From NCBI RefSeq assembly GCF_025231485.1, contig NZ_CP104003.1:2480001-2544000 (forward strand): a stretch of DNA of 64,000 nt, written 5' to 3'. Positions 36,033 through 48,107 of the stretch are shown piece after piece. Below the pieces are notes generated by a model. The model worked only from the letters and a program-made list of their open reading frames with translations, was not told where the DNA came from and searched no databases. Each line of letters begins with the position of its first letter. Positions within the stretch are counted from its first letter, which is position 1. This DNA is from Salinirubellus salinus. GTDB lineage: Archaea; Halobacteriota; Halobacteria; Halobacteriales; Haloarculaceae. The translations under genes were made by a program, and so were the position numbers.

Positions 36033-36277
36033 GGGTGTCGTTCCGAAGAAGCTCATAAGTACCTGTATATTCACACGAGCGTCGATAGGAGCGGCGGTGG
36101 TGGGCCGCAATCGGCGACGCCAGGCAGTCGGGGGACCGGTCTGGCGTTAAACCACGAGACCGGAGTGTGAACAATTTACGCCGTTCTAAGCCCGTAATAT
36201 CCAGACACGGACGGCGTGTGAACGGACTGAACGAGAGACCCCGTTTATTCTCGACGACGAGAGTGTCTCGGATACAG
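36033..36277. promoter_or_regulatory. Divergent promoter region for two surface-protein genes
   Basis: On the minus strand AATATAC (36065-36071) is a TATA-like element for the pilin-like gene. On the plus strand TTTATT (36244-36249) is placed about 31 bases before the repeat-protein ATG. No obvious operator palindrome spans both; the shared region could still allow co-regulation. Confidence 0.5.
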
Positions 36278-38023
36278 ATGGCACGGAACAGCAAACTGTT
36301 CGCGGTCACGATGGCGTCGCTGCTGGTGTTCGTGGCGTTCACGCCGGGGGCACTGGCGGCGTCGGCCGCAAACGCGGCCGCGAACACGTCGGTCGACGTC
36401 TCGACGGAGGCGGCGACGGACGTGACGGTGGACAGCGCGACCCTGAACGGTAACGTGACGGAACTGAACGGCTCCGAGAACGCCAGCCTGGCGTTCCAGT
36501 ACTGGGCGGCCGACGACTCGGTGAACAAGACGACCGTCGAGGCCGGCAACCTCTCCAGCGAGGGTGCGTTCTCCGCCGACGTGGGCGACCTCTCGCCGGA
36601 CACGACGTACGTGTACGTGGCGACGGCCGGCGCCGGCAACGCAGCGGCCGTCGGCGCCGAGCAGGAGTTCACGACGCTCGAGACGCTCGACGTGAGCGTC
36701 GAGACCGACGGTGCGGTGAACGTCACCGCGACGAACGCCACGTTCGAGGGTGACCTCACCGACGTCCAGGGCGCCGAGAACGCCAGCGTCTCGTTCCGGA
36801 TGTACGAGGAGGGTCAGCGCAACACGACGAACGTCCTGACCCTCGGCGAGCAGTCCGAGGGGAACTTCTCCGCGGACGTGAGCGAGCTCTCACCGAACAC
36901 GGCCTACGTGGTCGTCGCGCAGGCCGAGGCCGAGCGTGGGAACGAGTCGGAGGACGCGACCGGCGAGTCGGTGAACTTCACCACCGACGACGCGACCCAG
37001 CCGCTGGGCGTCGAGACGGCGAACGCGAGCGACGTGACGAACACGTCGGCGTCGCTGAACGGCGACCTCACGGGGCTGAACGGCTCGGACAACGCGAGCG
37101 TCTCGTTCACCTACTGGGTGTCCGGTGACGCGGCGAACACGACGACGACCACCGCGGTCGAACTCGATGCGCCCGGGAGCTTCAGCGCGGCCGTCGACGG
37201 CCTCGCGGGCAACACGACGTACGTCTACGCCGCCACGGCCGAGACCGGCGACGAGAGCGTCGCCGGCGAGAACGTGACGTTCACCACCGAGGCCGACGTG
37301 CTGCCGCTGGGCGTCGAGACGGACGACGCGACCGAGGTGGCGAACGCCTCGGCGACGCTGAACGGCGACCTCACGGGCCTCAACGGCTCTGACAGCGCCG
37401 CCGTCGCCTTCGAGTACTGGGCCGTGAACGGCAGCGAGAGCGCGACCACCGTCGACGCCGGCAACCTGAGCGACGCCGGCACGTTCGACGCGGGCGTCTC
37501 CGGCCTCCAGAACAACACGACGTACGTCTACGTCGCCACGGCCGAGGTCGGCAACGCCGCCGTCACTGGCGAGGAGGAGACGTTCACCACCGGTGCCGCC
37601 GAGGAGGAGGGCTTCGTCCCGCCGAACGGACCGTTCGGCCAGCAGGTCGTCGCGTTCGTCGACTACCTGCGCAACTCCGAGGACGCCGAGGAGCGTAACC
37701 TCGGCCAGTCCATCTCGGACTGGGTCACCGCGAACAACCCCGGTGCCGACAACCGTCCGGACCACGCCGGCCCGCCGGCGGACAAGGGCCCCAGCGCGGA
37801 CAAGGAACGTGGCCCGCCGGAGGACAAGGAGCGCGGCCCGCCGGAGGACAAGGAACGTGGCCCGCCGGCGGACAGGGGTCCGGACGAGGACGACGATGAC
37901 GCGGCGCCCGAGGACGACGAGGAAGAGGCCGACGACAGCGACGACGACGAGGAAGACGACGACAGCGACGACGACGAGGAAGACGACAAGGGCGGCCCGC
38001 CGGAGCACGCGGGTCCGAAGTAG
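36278..38023 (+). CDS. Secreted repeat protein with four FnIII-like domains and an Asp-rich tail
   Basis: A 581-residue exported protein. A signal peptide (residues 1-29, LFAVTMASLLVFVAFTPGAL) precedes four ~97-residue repeats at about 38-134, 138-237, 243-338 and 344-439. Each has TLNGDLTGLNGS-like, WAADDSVNKTT-like and NTTYVYVATAE-like segments, as in FnIII/Ig beta sandwiches, with many N-x-S/T sequons for N-glycosylation. A conserved haloarchaeal module follows (~452-500: GPFGQQVVAFVDYL, VTANNPG). The tail (500-581) has three DKERGPPE octapeptides and long Asp/Glu runs. There is no C-terminal helix or PGF-type anchor, so it is probably released or held non-covalently. Function is unknown; adhesion or matrix is an inference. 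Confidence 0.82.
   Translation: MARNSKLFAVTMASLLVFVAFTPGALAASAANAAANTSVDVSTEAATDVTVDSATLNGNVTELNGSENASLAFQYWAADDSVNKTTVEAGNLSSEGAFSADVGDLSPDTTYVYVATAGAGNAAAVGAEQEFTTLETLDVSVETDGAVNVTATNATFEGDLTDVQGAENASVSFRMYEEGQRNTTNVLTLGEQSEGNFSADVSELSPNTAYVVVAQAEAERGNESEDATGESVNFTTDDATQPLGVETANASDVTNTSASLNGDLTGLNGSDNASVSFTYWVSGDAANTTTTTAVELDAPGSFSAAVDGLAGNTTYVYAATAETGDESVAGENVTFTTEADVLPLGVETDDATEVANASATLNGDLTGLNGSDSAAVAFEYWAVNGSESATTVDAGNLSDAGTFDAGVSGLQNNTTYVYVATAEVGNAAVTGEEETFTTGAAEEEGFVPPNGPFGQQVVAFVDYLRNSEDAEERNLGQSISDWVTANNPGADNRPDHAGPPADKGPSADKERGPPEDKERGPPEDKERGPPADRGPDEDDDDAAPEDDEEEADDSDDDEEDDDSDDDEEDDKGGPPEHAGPK
37799..37870 (+). repeat. Three 24-base tandem repeats in the surface-protein gene
   Basis: Three consecutive units (37799-37822, 37823-37846, 37847-37870) encode DKERGPPE, DKERGPPE and DKERGPPA. 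They differ at only a few bases, mostly third positions, so the array could change length by slippage or unequal recombination. Confidence 0.85.
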
Positions 38024-40880: not shown

Positions 40881-43739
40881 ATGAGCGAGTACGACCCCCA
40901 CGCGGTCGAGGAACGCTGGCGTGACCGCTGGCAGGAGGAGGGCACCTACGAGGCCGACCCGGACGAGGCGGGCGAACCCACGTTCGTCACCGTCCCGTAC
41001 CCGTACCCGAGCGGCGGGATGCACATCGGCCACGCCCGCACGTACACCGTGCCGGACGTGTACGCGCGCTACCGGCGGCTGCAGGGCGACAACGTCCTCT
41101 TTCCCATCGCGTGGCACGTCACGGGCACCCCCATCATCGGGGCCGTCGAACGCCTGAAGAAGGGCGAGGAGAAACAGCTCTCCGTGCTGCGGGACACGTA
41201 CAACGTCCCCGAGGACACCCTGCAGGACCTGGAGACGCCGATGGGGTTCGCCCGCTACTTCATCGAGGAACACTACAAGAAGGGGATGCGCTCGCTGGGC
41301 CTCTCCATCGACTGGCGACGCGAGTTCACCACCAACGACGAGCGCTACCAGCGGTTCATCACGTGGCAGTACGAGACCCTGCGCGACCGCGGCCTGCTGG
41401 AGAAGGGGCTCCACCCGGTGAAGTACTGCACCAACGAGCAACAGCCGGTCACCACCCACGACATCCTCGAGGGCGAGGAGGCCGAGTTCCAGGAGTACAC
41501 GCTGGTCAAGTTCACCGTCACGCTGCCCGACGGCGACACCGCCGTCGCGCCGATGGCGACGCTGCGCCCGGAGACGGTCCGCGGCGTGACGAACGCCTTC
41601 GTCAAGCCGAGCGGGTCGTACGTCAAGGCGAGTGTCGACGGCGAGACGTGGGTCGTCAGCGAGACGGCCGCTGAGAAACTGCGCCTGCAGGAGCGGACCG
41701 TTGAGGTCCTCGACACCTTCGAGGGCGAGGAACTGGTCGGCGTCGAGGCGACGAACCCCATCACCGAGGACGAGGTCGTCGTCCTCCCGGCCTCCTTCGT
41801 CGACCCGGAGAACGCCACGGGTGTCGTGATGTCCGTGCCGGCGCACTCCCCGGACGACTACGTCGCGCTGCAGGAGGTCAAGGACGACGCCGACTCGCTG
41901 GCCGAGTACGGCATCGACCCCGACGCGGTCCGGGCCCTCGAGCCCATCCCCATCCTGACCATCGAGGGGTACGGCGAGATCCCCGCGAAGGACGCGGTCG
42001 AGCAGGCCGGCGTCACCTCGCAGGACGACCCGGCGCTGGAGGCGGCCACGCAGGAACTCTACAACCGCGAGTTCCACCAAGGTGAGCTGATAGACGCGTA
42101 CGGCGAGTACGCCGGCCGCGTCGTCGAGGACGTCCGCGAGGCGTTCCGCGACCACTACCGCCGCACGGGGCAGTTCGGTCAGTTCTACGAGTTCACCGAG
42201 GAGGTCGTCTGCCGGTGTGGCGGGGCCGTCGAGGTGGCCAAGCAGGACACCTGGTTCCTGCGGTACAACGACGAGGACTGGAAGGCCGAGACCAAACGCG
42301 CCATCGACCGGCTGACGGCCATCCCGGAGAACACGCGCGAGCAGTACACCCACACCGTCGACTGGCTGAACGAGTGGCCCTGCATCCGCAACTACGGGCT
42401 GGGCACCCGGCTGCCGTGGGACCAGGACTTCGTCATCGAGCCGCTGTCGGACTCGACCATCTACATGGCGTACTACACCATCGCCCACCGGCTGGACGAC
42501 GTCCCGCCCGAGGGGATGACCCGTGAGTTCTTCGACACGCTGTTCTACGGTGCGGACGCGGTCGACGACCCGGACGAACACGCCCTGGACCTGCGCGAGG
42601 AGTGGGACCACTGGTACCCCGTCGACGTCCGGGTGAGCGCGAACGACCTCATCTCGAACCACCTGACGTTCTTCCTGTACCACCACGCGGAGCTGTTCGA
42701 CGAGGACAACTGGCCCGAGGGCATCACCATCATGGGGATGGGCCTGCTGGAGGGGCAGAAGATGTCCTCCTCGAAAGGGCACGTGGTCCTGCCGGGCGAG
42801 GCCGTCTCGGAGTACGGCGCCGACACCGCCCGGTTCTTCCTGCTGAACTCCGCCGAGCCGTGGCAGGACTTCGACTGGCGGGCCGACCAGGTCGAGACGG
42901 TCCACGACCAGTTGCGGCGGTTCTGGGACCGGGCGGCGCGCATCATCGAGAGCGAGGCCCCCGAGGACCCCGACCTCCGGCCCATCGACGAGTGGCTGCT
43001 CTCCAGACTGCAGACGACCGTCCGCGAGGCGACCGAGGCGCTCGACGGCTTCGAGACGCGAACCGCCTCGCAGGCCGCGTTCTACGCCTTCGAGGAGTCG
43101 CTGCGCTGGTACCGCCGACGCACCGACCTCGACCGGCCGGGCGCGCGCTACACCCAGCGCGAGGTACTGCGGACGCGCCTCGAACTGCTGGCCCCGTTCG
43201 TCCCGTTCATGGCGAACGAACTCCACGAGCGGCTGACCGGCGAGCCCGCCGAGGAGTGGCCCGAGGTCGACGAGTCGCTGGAGTCCGCCGCAGTGGAGGC
43301 CCGCGAGACGCTCGTCCGGGACCTGACCGACGACGTGAACGACATCGTGGACGTGGTCGGGAGCGACCCGGAGGTCATCCGCGTCTACGCCGCCGCCGAC
43401 TGGAAGCGCGACGTGCTGGAACAGGTCGTCGAGACCGGCCCCGACGTGGGTGCGGTGATGGGCGAGGTGATGTCCGACCCCGACCTGCGCGAGAAGGGGA
43501 ACGCCGTGAACCAGCTGGTGCAGGACCTCGTCGAGGTGGTCCGCGAGCGCGACGCCGACACGCTGGCGGACCTGCGCGCGCTGGACGAGGTCGAGGTGTA
43601 CGAGGACGCCGCCGCGTTCCTCGAACGCGAGTTCGGTGCGGACGTAGAGGTCTACGCCGAGGACGACCCGGATGCGGTGGACCCGGAGGGGAAGGCGGGC
43701 AACGCCCAGCCGCTGCGGCCGGCCATCCACCTCGAGTAG
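40881..43739 (+). CDS. leuS: Leucyl-tRNA synthetase
   Basis: A 952-residue class I synthetase charging tRNA-Leu. The HIGH motif is exact (residues 48-51, PYPSGGMHIGHARTYTVPD), KMSSS is at 627-631 (EGQKMSSSKGHVVLPGE), and the editing domain has TLRPETVRGVTNAFV. The archaeal/eukaryotic type is shown by the C-terminal extension (FGADVEVYAEDDPDAVDPEG) and by insertions in the CP1 region. It begins after a 384-base gene-free stretch that contains a dispersed repeat; TTCTTATGG (~40851-40859) is a possible TATA region. Confidence 0.97.
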   Translation: MSEYDPHAVEERWRDRWQEEGTYEADPDEAGEPTFVTVPYPYPSGGMHIGHARTYTVPDVYARYRRLQGDNVLFPIAWHVTGTPIIGAVERLKKGEEKQLSVLRDTYNVPEDTLQDLETPMGFARYFIEEHYKKGMRSLGLSIDWRREFTTNDERYQRFITWQYETLRDRGLLEKGLHPVKYCTNEQQPVTTHDILEGEEAEFQEYTLVKFTVTLPDGDTAVAPMATLRPETVRGVTNAFVKPSGSYVKASVDGETWVVSETAAEKLRLQERTVEVLDTFEGEELVGVEATNPITEDEVVVLPASFVDPENATGVVMSVPAHSPDDYVALQEVKDDADSLAEYGIDPDAVRALEPIPILTIEGYGEIPAKDAVEQAGVTSQDDPALEAATQELYNREFHQGELIDAYGEYAGRVVEDVREAFRDHYRRTGQFGQFYEFTEEVVCRCGGAVEVAKQDTWFLRYNDEDWKAETKRAIDRLTAIPENTREQYTHTVDWLNEWPCIRNYGLGTRLPWDQDFVIEPLSDSTIYMAYYTIAHRLDDVPPEGMTREFFDTLFYGADAVDDPDEHALDLREEWDHWYPVDVRVSANDLISNHLTFFLYHHAELFDEDNWPEGITIMGMGLLEGQKMSSSKGHVVLPGEAVSEYGADTARFFLLNSAEPWQDFDWRADQVETVHDQLRRFWDRAARIIESEAPEDPDLRPIDEWLLSRLQTTVREATEALDGFETRTASQAAFYAFEESLRWYRRRTDLDRPGARYTQREVLRTRLELLAPFVPFMANELHERLTGEPAEEWPEVDESLESAAVEARETLVRDLTDDVNDIVDVVGSDPEVIRVYAAADWKRDVLEQVVETGPDVGAVMGEVMSDPDLREKGNAVNQLVQDLVEVVRERDADTLADLRALDEVEVYEDAAAFLEREFGADVEVYAEDDPDAVDPEGKAGNAQPLRPAIHLE

Positions 43740-43755
43740 TCGCGTCGCGCCCCGT

Positions 43756-45591
43756 TCAGCCGACGAAGCCGTCCGCTTCTATCGCCTCGGCCAGCGCGTC
43801 GGGCAGGAAGTCGTCGTCGGGCCCGACGGTGGGTTCGAGGAAGCCACGGTCCGTGTGGAGGGGGTCGTCTGCCAGTCGGCTCTCCTCGGGGAGCCGACCC
43901 AGCACGTTGTGCAACAGTTCGTGGGTGAACAGGACGGTGTCGACCGAGCCCGGTTCGTACACCACGAGTTCGCCGGGCGCCTCGGCGCGCGCTTCGTACT
44001 CGCCGTCCCGGAACTCCGAGGTGAGTACGACGAGGTGGTACTCACCCGGCCGACTCCCCATGTACGCCTCGGTGTAGAACTGGCCGACGGCGTTCGAGAG
44101 GTACTCGTCGCGGTCGTAGTCCCAGACGACCCGCTTGTCGACCGACTGGCGCCGGAGGTGGATGTCGATACCCGTCGAGCCGTCCGGGTTCTCGACGGGC
44201 ATCCCGGCCCACTGCTCCCGGACGGTGTCGGCCTTCGCGTCGTCGAGACGCGCCCCGCCCGCGGCCCGTATCACCTCGACGTAGAGGTCCATCCGGAGCG
44301 GGTCGGCGCCCGGCAGCGGCGCACCGTCGGCCGACTCGCCGGCCACCTCCCACCCGTCGAGCAGTCGGTCGCCGTCCGTGTCCGGGTCGGCCGGGTCGGT
44401 GCCGAGTTCGGCCTCCCGGGCGTCGTCCAGCCCGTCGTCGTCCGTGTCCGCCAGCGTCGGGTCGCTCGGCCCGTCGGCCTCCTGCCCGTCGGAAAGCCCG
44501 TCGCCGTCCGTGTCGGACTCGGCCGGGTTACTCCCGAGGTCCGCCTCCCGGGCGTCGTCCAGCCCGTCGCCGTCCGTGTCCGCCTGCGTCGGGTCGCTCG
44601 GTCCGTCGGCCTCCTGGCCGTCGGGGAGCCCGTCGCCGTCCGTGTCGGCCTCGGTCGGGTCCGTCGGCCCCCCCACCTCGTCGCGGTCGTCCAGCCCGTC
44701 GCCGTCCGTGTCGGCCTCGGTCGGGTCCGTCGGCAGGTCGAGCACCTCTGCCCGGTCGTCCAGCCCGTCACCGTCCGAGTCCGCCTCGGCCGGGTCGGTC
44801 CCGTACACCTGGACCTCCGTTCCGTCCTCGAAGCCATCGTCGTCCGTGTCGACCGCGAGTGGGTCCGAGCCGAGGTCGACCTCCCGGCCGTCTGCCAGCC
44901 CGTCGTCGTCCGTGTCGACCACGAGCGGGTCGGTGCCGCGTTCGGCCTCCTCGCCGTCCGACAGCCCGTCGTCGTCCGTGTCGACCACGAGCGGGTCGGT
45001 GCCGCGTTCGGCCTCCTCGCCGTCCGACAGCCCGTCGTCGTCCGTGTCGGCCACCGTCGAATCCGTCGGCCCATCGGCCTCCTCGGCGTCGTCGAGCCCG
45101 TCACCGTCTGTGTCCGAGTCGGTCGGGTCGGTACCGAGGTCGACCTCTCGGCTGTCCGACAGTCCGTCACCGTCCGTGTCGGCCACTGTCGGGTCGGACG
45201 AACCCTCGGCCTCCGCGCCGTCCGACAGTCCGTCACCGTCCGTGTCCGGGTCGGTCGGGTCGGTGCCGAGCTCGGCCTCCCGGCCGTCAGAGAGTCCGTC
45301 ACCGTCCGAGTTCTCCGCGGCCGGGTCGGCCCCCGCGTCGAGTTCCGCACCGTCACGGAGGCCGTCGCCGTCCGTGTCGGCCACGAGCGGCGAGCTCGCC
45401 CCTGCGAGTTCCGTCCCGTCGGTCAGACCGTCCCCGTCGCTGTCGGGCGAGAGCGGGTCCGTCCCGAGTCGCAGCTCGTCGGCCGCGGTGACCGAGTCGC
45501 CGTCGACGGAGTAGACGTCCGTCGTCGCCACCGCGCCGACCCCGACACCGCTCGTGAGGAGGAGTGCAACCACCCCGACCACCAGTCGCAT
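43756..45591 (-). CDS. Secreted TSP3-repeat protein with HExxH metallopeptidase-like domain (copy 1)
   Basis: A 611-residue exported protein. A signal peptide (RLVVGVVALLLTSGVGVGAV) is followed by about 18 tandem calcium-binding thrombospondin-type-3/dockerin-like units with the pattern D-T/S-D-x-D-G-L-x-D-x-x-E (residues ~30-400). The final ~200 residues form a globular domain with the zinc-protease motif HELLH in VLFTHELLHNVLGRL, a conserved DDPLHTDRGFLEP region that could supply a third ligand, and upstream strands GSTGIDIHLRRQSVD. The ATG at 45591 is chosen over a GTG at 45600 by promoter spacing. It ends 16 bases from the convergent leuS stop. The paralogue at 45690 has the same architecture. 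Protease activity is inferred, not known. Confidence 0.82.
   Translation of the reverse strand: MRLVVGVVALLLTSGVGVGAVATTDVYSVDGDSVTAADELRLGTDPLSPDSDGDGLTDGTELAGASSPLVADTDGDGLRDGAELDAGADPAAENSDGDGLSDGREAELGTDPTDPDTDGDGLSDGAEAEGSSDPTVADTDGDGLSDSREVDLGTDPTDSDTDGDGLDDAEEADGPTDSTVADTDDDGLSDGEEAERGTDPLVVDTDDDGLSDGEEAERGTDPLVVDTDDDGLADGREVDLGSDPLAVDTDDDGFEDGTEVQVYGTDPAEADSDGDGLDDRAEVLDLPTDPTEADTDGDGLDDRDEVGGPTDPTEADTDGDGLPDGQEADGPSDPTQADTDGDGLDDAREADLGSNPAESDTDGDGLSDGQEADGPSDPTLADTDDDGLDDAREAELGTDPADPDTDGDRLLDGWEVAGESADGAPLPGADPLRMDLYVEVIRAAGGARLDDAKADTVREQWAGMPVENPDGSTGIDIHLRRQSVDKRVVWDYDRDEYLSNAVGQFYTEAYMGSRPGEYHLVVLTSEFRDGEYEARAEAPGELVVYEPGSVDTVLFTHELLHNVLGRLPEESRLADDPLHTDRGFLEPTVGPDDDFLPDALAEAIEADGFVG
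44896..45027. repeat. Exact 66-base tandem duplication in the TSP3 region
   Basis: Two adjacent 66-base units (44896-44961 and 44962-45027) appear identical, and a third partial unit continues to about 45048. On the coding strand each encodes a 22-residue repeat with DDDGLSDGEEAERGTDPLVV. Perfect identity in a region where other repeats differ indicates recent duplication. Confidence 0.8.
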
Positions 45592-45689
45592 AGCCGTCAC
45601 GAACGGTCACGCGAGGCTAACAGTTTCGGTCGGGGAAACGTCCGTGTCGAGGCGGACTGGAGGCGGGCGCGGGGGGAGACAGGAGTGCC

Positions 45690-46955
45690 TCAGCCCGCGA
45701 AGCCGTCCTCCTCGAGTTGCTCGGCGATCGAGTCGGGCAGGTGGGGGTCGGCGCCGGTCGGCGTGAGGAACCCCTCGCTGGCGTGGTACGGGTCGTCCTC
45801 GAGTGCCAGCGGGGAGTCCAGTCGGCCCAGCACGTTGTGGAGGAGTTCGTGGGTGAGGACGTCCGGGCGGAGCCCGGGCCACGGCGCGTAGACGGTCACC
45901 CGGCCGGGCGCCTGGCCGAAGGCCGCCGAGCTGCCGAACTCGTACTCCGTCGTGGCCACGGCGAGGTGGTACTCGCCCGTCCGGTTGCCGAGGTACCGCT
46001 CGTCGTAGTAGTCTCGTGCGTCCCGGTCGGCGTCGCCGTCGACGTGGACCACCTCGCCGTCGACGGTCTGTCGACTGACGTGGATGTCGATCCCCGTGGA
46101 CCCGTCGGGGTTCTGGACCGGCATCTCCGCCCAGTAGCGGACGAGCGTCTCCTCCTCGCGCTCGGTGAGCCGGTCACCCTCCACCGGCCGCAGGAGTTCG
46201 ACGTAGAGGTCCATCCGGAGCGGGTCGGCGTCCGGTAGCGGCGCACCGTCGGCCGACTCGCCGGCCACCTCCCACCCGTCGAGCAGTCGGTCGCCGTCCG
46301 TGTCCGGGTCGGTCGGGTCGGTGCCGAGCGCCACCTCCTCGCCGTCGGCCAGCCCGTCGTCGTCGGTGTCGGCCAGCAGCGGGTCCGTCCCCCCGTCACT
46401 CTCGTCCGGGTCCGAGAGGCCGTCGTCGTCGGTGTCGGCCAGCAGGGGGGCCATCCCGACCGCGAGTTCCGTGTCGTCGTCGAGCGAGTCGCCGTCCGAG
46501 TCGACCGCGAGCGGGTCCGTCCCGAAGGCGGCCTCCCGCGAGTCGAGGAGGGTATCACCGTCGGTGTCGTCGGCGAGGGGGTCCGTGCCGTCGGTGGCCT
46601 CCTGCCCGTCGGTGAGGCCGTCGCCGTCCGTGTCCGCCACGGTCGGGTCGGTGCCGGCGTCCAGTTCGGCCGGGTCGTCGAGCCCGTCGTCGTCGGTGTC
46701 GACGAGCGTCGGGTCCGTCGGCCCGTCGAGTTCGACCGGGTCGGCGAGACCGTCGCCGTCCGTGTCTGCCCGTGTCGGGTCGGTGTCGAAGGTCCGCTCG
46801 TGTCGGTCGAGGAGACCGTCGCCGTCCGAGTCCTGCCCGAGCGGGTCGAGTTCGAGCGGTGAGGGGGCGGCGAGCCCGCCACCTGCACCGACCGCACCGG
46901 CACTCACACCACTGACGAGGACGAGAACGACAGCCAGCACCGCCGGCCAGTTCAT
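45690..46955 (-). CDS. Secreted TSP3-repeat protein with HExxH metallopeptidase-like domain (copy 2)
   Basis: A 421-residue paralogue of the preceding protein, also on the minus strand and 98 bases upstream of it. Signal peptide (PAVLAVVLVLVSGVSAGAV), about 9 TSP3-type units (~35-225), then the same C-terminal domain: GSTGIDIHVSRQTVDG, VLTHELLHNVLGRLDSP and EDDPYHASEGFLTP. Both copies keep the His after DDP and the HELLHNVLGRL core, so these positions are under constraint. The linker PDTDGDRLLDGWEVAGESAD is almost identical between the two, indicating a tandem duplication followed by repeat expansion in copy 1. Confidence 0.82.
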   Translation of the reverse strand: MNWPAVLAVVLVLVSGVSAGAVGAGGGLAAPSPLELDPLGQDSDGDGLLDRHERTFDTDPTRADTDGDGLADPVELDGPTDPTLVDTDDDGLDDPAELDAGTDPTVADTDGDGLTDGQEATDGTDPLADDTDGDTLLDSREAAFGTDPLAVDSDGDSLDDDTELAVGMAPLLADTDDDGLSDPDESDGGTDPLLADTDDDGLADGEEVALGTDPTDPDTDGDRLLDGWEVAGESADGAPLPDADPLRMDLYVELLRPVEGDRLTEREEETLVRYWAEMPVQNPDGSTGIDIHVSRQTVDGEVVHVDGDADRDARDYYDERYLGNRTGEYHLAVATTEYEFGSSAAFGQAPGRVTVYAPWPGLRPDVLTHELLHNVLGRLDSPLALEDDPYHASEGFLTPTGADPHLPDSIAEQLEEDGFAG

Positions 46956-47102: not shown

Positions 47103-48107
47103 ATGCGCGTCATCGGCACCGTCGGCCTGCCCGGCAGCGGGAAGGGTGAGTTCGCCAACGTCGCCCGCGAGATGGGGCTCCCGGTCGTCACGATGGGCGA
47201 CGTGGTCCGGGCGGAGACCCGTGCCCGTGGGCTGGACCCCGCCGACCACCACGGCGAGGTGGCACAGGCGATGCGCGAGGAGGACGGGCCGCTCGCCATC
47301 GCCGAGCGCTCGCTCCCGATGATACGCGAGCGACTCGAGGACCACGACACCGTCGTCGTCGACGGCCTCCGCTCGGGCGACGAGGCCCGCCGCTTCGAGG
47401 AGGCGTTCGGCGACGACTTCCTCCTCGTGGCCATCACCGCGCCCGACGAGGTGCGCGCCGAGCGACTGGACCTCCGGGCGCGGGACAACACCGAGGCCGA
47501 GAGCATCGCCGACCGCGACGAGCGCGAACTCGGCTTCGGCATGGGCGAGGCCATCGACCGGGCCGCGCTCTCCATCCCGAACGGCGACTCGCTGGCGGCG
47601 TTCCAGGCACGAGCGCGGGCGGTCATCGCCGACGGCGTCGAGGCGGCCGACCGCATCGAGGAGATCGTGCGGAACGAGGTGCAGACGGACGGGGGGAGCA
47701 TCCTCTACAGCGTCGACGTCGAGATCGTCGTCCCCATCAAGGACACCGAGGTGAAGGCCCGCGTCCGCGACGCCGTCGAGGCCCTCTTCCCCGAGGCCGA
47801 GTTCGAGGAGGGCCACGGCGAGTTGCGGGGCGAGGCCCACTCGCTCGAACACTTCTCCGAGTTGCTCCACGACCAGCAGATCCTCGACACGGCGCGGGGG
47901 CAGTTCTTCGCCGACCAGTCCGGCGATACCTTCTCGTTCGACCTGAAGAAGCAGGCCGCGTTCCGCGGCGTGGTGAACTTCGCCGTCGGGAGTCCGGGCG
48001 AACTCGGCGAGATACACGTGCGCGTGAAGGTGCGCGACCCGAGCGTGGAGGCGTACGTCGACCACGTGGCTCCGCCCACGGAGGATGGCAGGCCGGTCAC
48101 GGAGTAG
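47103..48107 (+). CDS. UPF0200 kinase-like / UPF0201 fusion protein
   Basis: A 334-residue two-domain protein. Residues 1-185 are a P-loop NMP/dephospho-CoA-kinase-like domain (UPF0200) with Walker A GLPGSGKG (8-15), VTMGDVVRAETR, VVDGLRSGDEARRFEE and a lid-like RARDNTEAESIADRDERE. Residues ~200-330 are a UPF0201 (DUF54) domain, which resembles ribosomal L5-like RNA-binding folds: VDVEIVVPIKDTEVKARVRD and QILDTARGQFFADQSGDTFS. The two are separate genes in many archaea; a fusion is characteristic of Halobacteria. It suggests that phosphoryl transfer and RNA binding act together, but the substrate is unknown. Confidence 0.88.
   Translation: MRVIGTVGLPGSGKGEFANVAREMGLPVVTMGDVVRAETRARGLDPADHHGEVAQAMREEDGPLAIAERSLPMIRERLEDHDTVVVDGLRSGDEARRFEEAFGDDFLLVAITAPDEVRAERLDLRARDNTEAESIADRDERELGFGMGEAIDRAALSIPNGDSLAAFQARARAVIADGVEAADRIEEIVRNEVQTDGGSILYSVDVEIVVPIKDTEVKARVRDAVEALFPEAEFEEGHGELRGEAHSLEHFSELLHDQQILDTARGQFFADQSGDTFSFDLKKQAAFRGVVNFAVGSPGELGEIHVRVKVRDPSVEAYVDHVAPPTEDGRPVTE

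Follow-up and report, generated by a model that had tools for sequence, protein, structure and literature searches.

Tandem TSP3-repeat proteins of Salinirubellus salinus carry a metzincin-like domain of an unnamed haloarchaeal family

The window analysed here, a stretch of 64,000 nucleotides from the 4.38 Mb genome of Salinirubellus salinus, contains two neighbouring genes whose products, P1 and P2, are in our judgement fairly probably extracellular zinc endopeptidases, displayed on a stalk and belonging to an unnamed haloarchaeal clade of metzincin-like proteins. This reading is based on their repeats, on homology to metzincins, on the joint retention or loss of three histidines and on selection acting on the domain, and from these we infer zinc binding, proteolysis, calcium dependence, anchoring and the substrate. 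It is weakened by the missing Met-turn methionine, by the non-canonical spacing of the third histidine and by two subclades in which catalysis is dispensable.

A tandem gene pair on the minus strand

Both genes encode proteins with the same order of parts (family A is defined below).

43756-45600, minus strand: P1, 614 amino acids; N-terminal hydrophobic segment, 17 TSP3 repeats and family A metzincin-like domain
45690-46955, minus strand: P2, 421 amino acids, paralogue of P1; N-terminal hydrophobic segment, 9 TSP3 repeats and family A domain

The start codon of P1 is GTG, or alternatively an in-frame ATG three codons further on, and that of P2 is ATG. GC contents by codon position are 0.81/0.47/0.90 for P1 and 0.81/0.46/0.91 for P2. 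An overlapping open reading frame on the plus strand (43672-45891) was ruled out as the coding frame, because homologues of P1 and P2 elsewhere place the coding sequence on the minus strand. The pair is convergent with a leucyl-tRNA synthetase gene (40881-43739, plus strand) and divergent from the gene of an AAA/RNA-binding protein (47103-48107, plus strand). A comparison with the neighbourhoods of relatives revealed no gene that is conserved next to the pair as an operon partner.

The earlier note on this DNA had described both proteins as secreted, and export is indeed likely. P1 begins with the hydrophobic stretch VTAMRLVVGVVALLLTSGVGVGAVA and P2 with MNWPAVLAVVLVLVSGVSAGAVGAG, and the highest hydrophobicity over 18 residues is reached from residue 7 in P1 and from residue 5 in P2. 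Neither protein contains a single Cys, hence a lipobox Cys is absent as well. Judged by its sequence, the N-terminal segment likely directs export, and it may stay in place as a membrane anchor.

In the domain tree described below P1 and P2 are sister sequences (SH-aLRT support 96), which shows that a duplication gave rise to the pair. Around the last TSP3 repeat and the start of the C-terminal domain, a tract of about 113 bases is near-identical between the two genes (44276-44388 and 46198-46310, minus strand), which suggests a later gene conversion; outside this tract the remainder of the domain has diverged to about 56% protein identity.

The TSP3 repeat array

The repeats of both proteins are of the DxDxDG type and are arranged as follows.

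44317-45444, minus strand: TSP3 array of P1, 17 repeats with a 22-residue period and two 23-residue steps
46239-46832, minus strand: TSP3 array of P2, 9 repeats with a 22-residue period

The Pfam model TSP3_bac (PF18884) matches P1 with E=1.9e-71 and P2 with E=3.9e-25, far beyond chance, and the scores of 235.8 and 87.8 bits, respectively, exceed the Pfam gathering cut-off of 25, which places both proteins in this family. The 22-residue DxDxDGLxD array is the same as in other TSP3_bac proteins such as CglD and MtsD, but P1 does not belong to the NCBIfam equivalogs of these names, as it reaches 125 bits against a cut-off of 400 for CglD and 53 against 800 for MtsD. Known TSP3 repeats bind calcium, and the DxDxDG motif implies that the arrays of P1 and P2 would do the same. 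Two successive repeats of P1 are near-identical in DNA, which indicates that repeats were duplicated recently. Among the relatives the number of repeats ranges from none to 26. Other relatives carry N-terminal membrane segments or lipobox-like sequences, and surface display seems to be a common theme among them.

The C-terminal domain and its family

The repeats are followed in both proteins by the same kind of domain, as the earlier note had recognised, and the two copies are 56-57% identical. They share the motifs HELLHNVLG...DDPxHxxxGFL.

43759-44292, minus strand: C-terminal metzincin-like domain of P1, residues 437-614 (MDLYV to the end)
43909-43923, minus strand: HELLH of P1, residues 560-564; H560, E561 and H564 are the predicted zinc ligands and general base
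43837-43857, minus strand: HTDRGFL of P1, from H582, the predicted third zinc ligand, through L588; Leu apparently replaces the Met-turn Met
45693-46214, minus strand: C-terminal metzincin-like domain of P2, residues 248-421
45837-45851, minus strand: HELLH of P2, residues 369-373, with H369, E370 and H373
45765-45785, minus strand: HASEGFL of P2, from the third His, H391, through L397

None of the Pfam and NCBIfam models matches the C-terminal domain of P1 or P2, and only the repeats receive a name. Pfam peptidase models, including M12/M12B, gave no match at E<=1 when compared with 19 members of family A. A genome search found matches in 76 of the 391 genomes of the class. The alignment splits them by their active site into two groups, family A, the type present in the window, and family B. 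Family A is recognised by HE[LI][LM]H-N-x-x-G and, further on, a His that stands 3-4 residues ahead of G-[WYF]-L, and family B by HExGHxLG...YPSVMNYN. A tree was built from 111 distinct domains, of which 75 belong to family A and 35 to family B, the remaining one being L166 (see below); here the two families lie on opposite sides of a branch with an SH-aLRT support of 98. Family A was found in 40 of 146 genomes from the taxonomic family that the window belongs to, apparently the Haloarculaceae, and in other haloarchaeal families as well. The majority of genomes with the domain hold one copy, and an adjacent pair was seen at the window locus only. All six matches on haloarchaeal plasmids, families A and B taken together, are annotated as 'hypothetical protein'. 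A match on a Haematobacter plasmid sits in a DUF11-domain protein and was set aside. No relatives were found in viral contigs and phage records.

The earlier note knew of no named family with this combination of repeats and domain and thought that it may be new. This holds for the domain insofar as it lacks a Pfam or NCBIfam model. However, the repeats are already a family of Pfam, the domain belongs to the known metzincin clan (see below), and the combination is not unique, as TSP3 repeats are joined to a family A domain in many haloarchaea.

Ten relatives (L072, L079, L081-L084, L087, L090, L093 and L095), which span several haloarchaeal families, are preceded by a gene for HMG-CoA synthase and followed by one for an HTH regulator. 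Several of them carry membrane-spanning segments in place of a long repeat stalk. The window pair is without such neighbours.

Kinship to metzincins

Aligned with hhalign, the profiles of families A and B match with 99.7% probability (E=2.9e-25), and the alignment runs through HExxH. The two families also have the upstream half in common (ADPLxxD[LIV]YVEVD...NPDGSTGIDLH). Unlike family A, family B has a different active-site tail, in which HExGH is retained together with a Met-turn-like motif (MNY, in the form VMNY), and weak matches to reprolysins and matrixins: 7 of 9 members match Reprolysin_3, Reprolysin_5 and Matrixin (best 3.8e-5, mostly under the Pfam cut-off). Compared with the PDB, the family B profile finds snake venom metalloproteinases (best 4e-4). 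In most haloarchaeal family B domains YPSVMNYN is also preceded by a conserved G[IV]D (e.g., L036, L045 and L048).

A further link is provided by L166, a protein from another archaeal class of the same phylum. Its segment HELLHNLGISHNDKQNSLM comprises a canonical HExxHxxGxxH and then a Met, and TSP3-like repeats lie upstream of the domain. L166 matches family A with E=7.5e-15 (A1) and 7e-13 over 170 columns (A4), and it matches Reprolysin_3 and Matrixin weakly. The register of its Met against the Leu of family A is ambiguous in the alignment.

For the fold we used an AlphaFold model of a relative, L094, which is 37-38% identical to the window domain. The model was built on 27 family A sequences and reached a pLDDT of 82.8 and a pTM of 0.79. 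HELLH forms part of a helix of residues 142-158, with G159 directly after its end, and the model was assigned to the catalytic fold of metzincins (a beta sheet with helix A, the HExxH helix B and helix C). When it was compared with the PDB, at least 49 of the 50 matches listed were of metzincin fold (ADAM17/TACE, adamalysins, ADAM8/22/33, ADAMTS5 and fragilysin), with a best E of 2.4e-5 and a TMq of 0.41-0.52, the superposition being loose (rmsd 6-14 A). With the P1 domain itself as the target the pLDDT was 67.1, the active-site region stayed below 50 and the fold search gave weak fragilysin matches only. Therefore, the fold of the window domain was transferred from L094. A phmmer search against the PDB returned one astacin-like match at chance level, which was discarded.

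Thus the zincin-like domain proposed in the earlier note was recovered as a metzincin fold, by profile homology and on the model of the relative. The results support that the family A domain lies within the known metzincin clan and is not a new class, and the model suggests that its head would fold like an adamalysin-type metzincin.

The active-site motif across family A

Textbook metzincins have the motif HExxHxxGxxH and a Met-turn. To follow these residues across family A, 73 domains were parsed by script and a 74th (L160) was read by eye, while in the 75th (L164) the frame is broken upstream of the motif. The third His accompanies HExxH in 63 of the 73 parsed domains, HAxxH in 6 and HVxxH in 2, whereas it is absent from the remaining 2, which have RGxxQ. 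L160 has HExxH and the third His as well, so that the complete set is intact in 64 of 74 members, P1 and P2 among these.

The third His is retained in every member with HxxxH (72/72; 71 parsed plus L160) and is absent in both members without HxxxH. The earlier note had suggested that a distal His could complete a zinc site, and across the family this His is indeed kept or lost together with HxxxH. The joint loss would fit a shared metal site, although it represents one evolutionary event in two sequences.

In all 71 parsed HxxxH members the third His sits 3-4 residues before [GS][WYF]L. It follows the second His after a gap of 6-23 residues, most commonly 10 or 17 (17 in both P1 and P2), instead of the 5 of canonical metzincins, and the Gly comes one residue later than in the canonical motif; the canonical HExxHxxGxxH spacing does not occur in family A. 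Among the parsed members with the third His, the residue after [GS]-[WYF] is always Leu (71 of 71). The family thus has Leu, and not Met, at the presumed Met-turn position, and this Leu is presumably the structural equivalent of the Met-turn Met.

Five relatives (L018 and L021, also L019, L022 and L157) have HELMH and a second HExxH segment (HEFAHTLQEQHG) in the upstream half, before a single TSP3-like motif. These proteins possibly contain two zincin-like domains each.

Branches without catalytic residues

Eight members (L007, L009, L043, L128, L158, L169, L170 and L171) lack the catalytic Glu and have HALLH or HVLLH with all three His kept. One change on the tree is sufficient for this loss. 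The dN/dS values of Glu-less pairs (0.16-0.45) are like those of HExxH pairs (0.13-0.47), and therefore these are proteins maintained under purifying selection and not decaying copies; by this measure they are likely selected pseudoproteases. A second and complete loss of the active site is found in L033 and L034, which have lipobox-like N-termini, TSP3 repeats and RGLLQN or RGLVQN, without the third His. For this pair the dN/dS is 0.13, a rough value as dS (3.3) is near saturation. Errors were considered as the source of RGLLQN/RGLVQN, but as the changes are common to two species with 52% identity and the frame is open, they are treated as real. As the catalytic Glu or the whole HExxH is lost in these relatives, not every copy of the domain is a protease.

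The head could also be a surface-binding or adhesion module with a metzincin fold, perhaps holding a structural zinc, on TSP3 repeats that serve as an adhesive stalk, with proteolysis minor or absent in P1 and P2 too. We regard this as unlikely. The two separate branches without catalytic residues (eight with HALLH/HVLLH and two with RGLLQN/RGLVQN) speak for it, as their dN/dS of 0.13-0.45 implies a domain that is useful without catalysis, the RGLLQN pair being near synonymous saturation. In addition, the nearest NCBIfam repeat names, CglD and MtsD, are those of gliding and cohesion proteins, though far under the cut-off, and the non-catalytic ADAM22 is among the structural matches. However, the intact HExxH and third His in 64 of 74 members are hard to explain without catalysis, and P1 and P2 belong to this intact group.

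Comparison with known metalloproteases

The nearest known proteins are the adamalysins/ADAMs (reprolysins, MEROPS M12B), which gave the best structural matches of the L094 model. Like family A they are extracellular multidomain proteins whose HExxH helix is ended by Gly and followed by the third His. In contrast, family A has the third His 6-23 residues after HExxH and not 5, Leu apparently at the Met-turn, and TSP3 repeats. An insert between the Gly of HExxHxxG and the third His is also known from leishmanolysin/GP63 (MEROPS M8; PMC11957388). In these kinetoplastid proteins it comprises at least 62 residues, compared with fewer than 20 in family A, and no sequence similarity was detected. In group G1 of GP63 a Leu stands in the place of the Met-turn Met (PMC11957388). 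Archaemetzincins (M54) are likewise archaeal with three His, but their motif is HExxHxxGxxHCx4CxMx17CxxC with four Cys (PMC3427221); P1 and P2, with a different motif and no Cys, are not members.

The Met of the Met-turn has been described as invariant, yet its replacement by Leu or Ser in gelatinase A had minor effects only, whereas its replacement in protease C of Erwinia compromised activity (PMC1266349). A mini-zincin family is without a Met-turn (PMC3890501). Each departure of family A from the textbook metzincins has therefore a precedent. The literature searched describes no large archaeal branch that combines these departures with TSP3 stalks, and it yielded nothing on haloarchaeal metzincins or archaeal TSP3 proteases.

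It is very improbable that the head is a zincin of another branch (gluzincin or WLM/SprT-like) with a different third ligand. HExxHNxxG resembles WLM proteases, the Met-turn Met is absent, and profile A1 alone gives weak PDB matches, led by a WLM-domain protease (E=0.11), which carries HELTHNVHG, and then an M48 peptidase (E=0.33). Against this stand the profile kinship to family B and L166, both with Met-turn-like motifs, the Foldseek list, which consists mostly of metzincins with no gluzincin recognised among the best 50, and the third His, which tracks HxxxH across family A.

Proposed function

A stalk-displayed zinc endopeptidase would work as follows. P1 and P2, which arose by tandem duplication, would each be exported by the N-terminal hydrophobic segment, which perhaps stays as an anchor. 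Outside the cell the TSP3 repeats would bind calcium and form a stiffened stalk, whose length may change through gain or loss of repeats. The head (P1 numbering) would hold one zinc on H560, H564 and H582, with E561 as the general base, and hydrolyse the peptide bonds of proteins that are secreted or located at the cell surface. That it mainly cuts its own stalk or the tandem partner for maturation and release from the cell is scarcely credible: the tandem sister pair, the position of the head behind an export segment and a stalk, and the lack of a recognisable separate prodomain would suit such self-processing, but most genomes are single-copy and adjacent pairing occurs only at the window locus.

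A more specific version of the endopeptidase reading is tentative, and we doubt it slightly more than we believe it. Here family A would be an active haloarchaeal metzincin branch in which the Met-turn Met became Leu and the third His moved down a variable loop, with some selected pseudoproteases and with the window pair as active, calcium-stalked members.

Family A is widespread in haloarchaea and still without a Pfam or NCBIfam model. If active, it would allow one to examine in naturally occurring proteins, with matched active and inactive relatives, why a Met under the zinc is kept in metzincins, a question for which mutants have been the main approach so far (PMC1266349). A further implication is the display of enzymes at the surface on a stalk that binds calcium and would be tunable in length by repeat number.

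Another repeat protein is encoded in the window at 36167-38023 on the plus strand. It has 618 amino acids, fibronectin-III-like repeats (Pfam Pur_ac_phosph_N, fn3) and a long charged tail rich in Asp, Glu and Pro.
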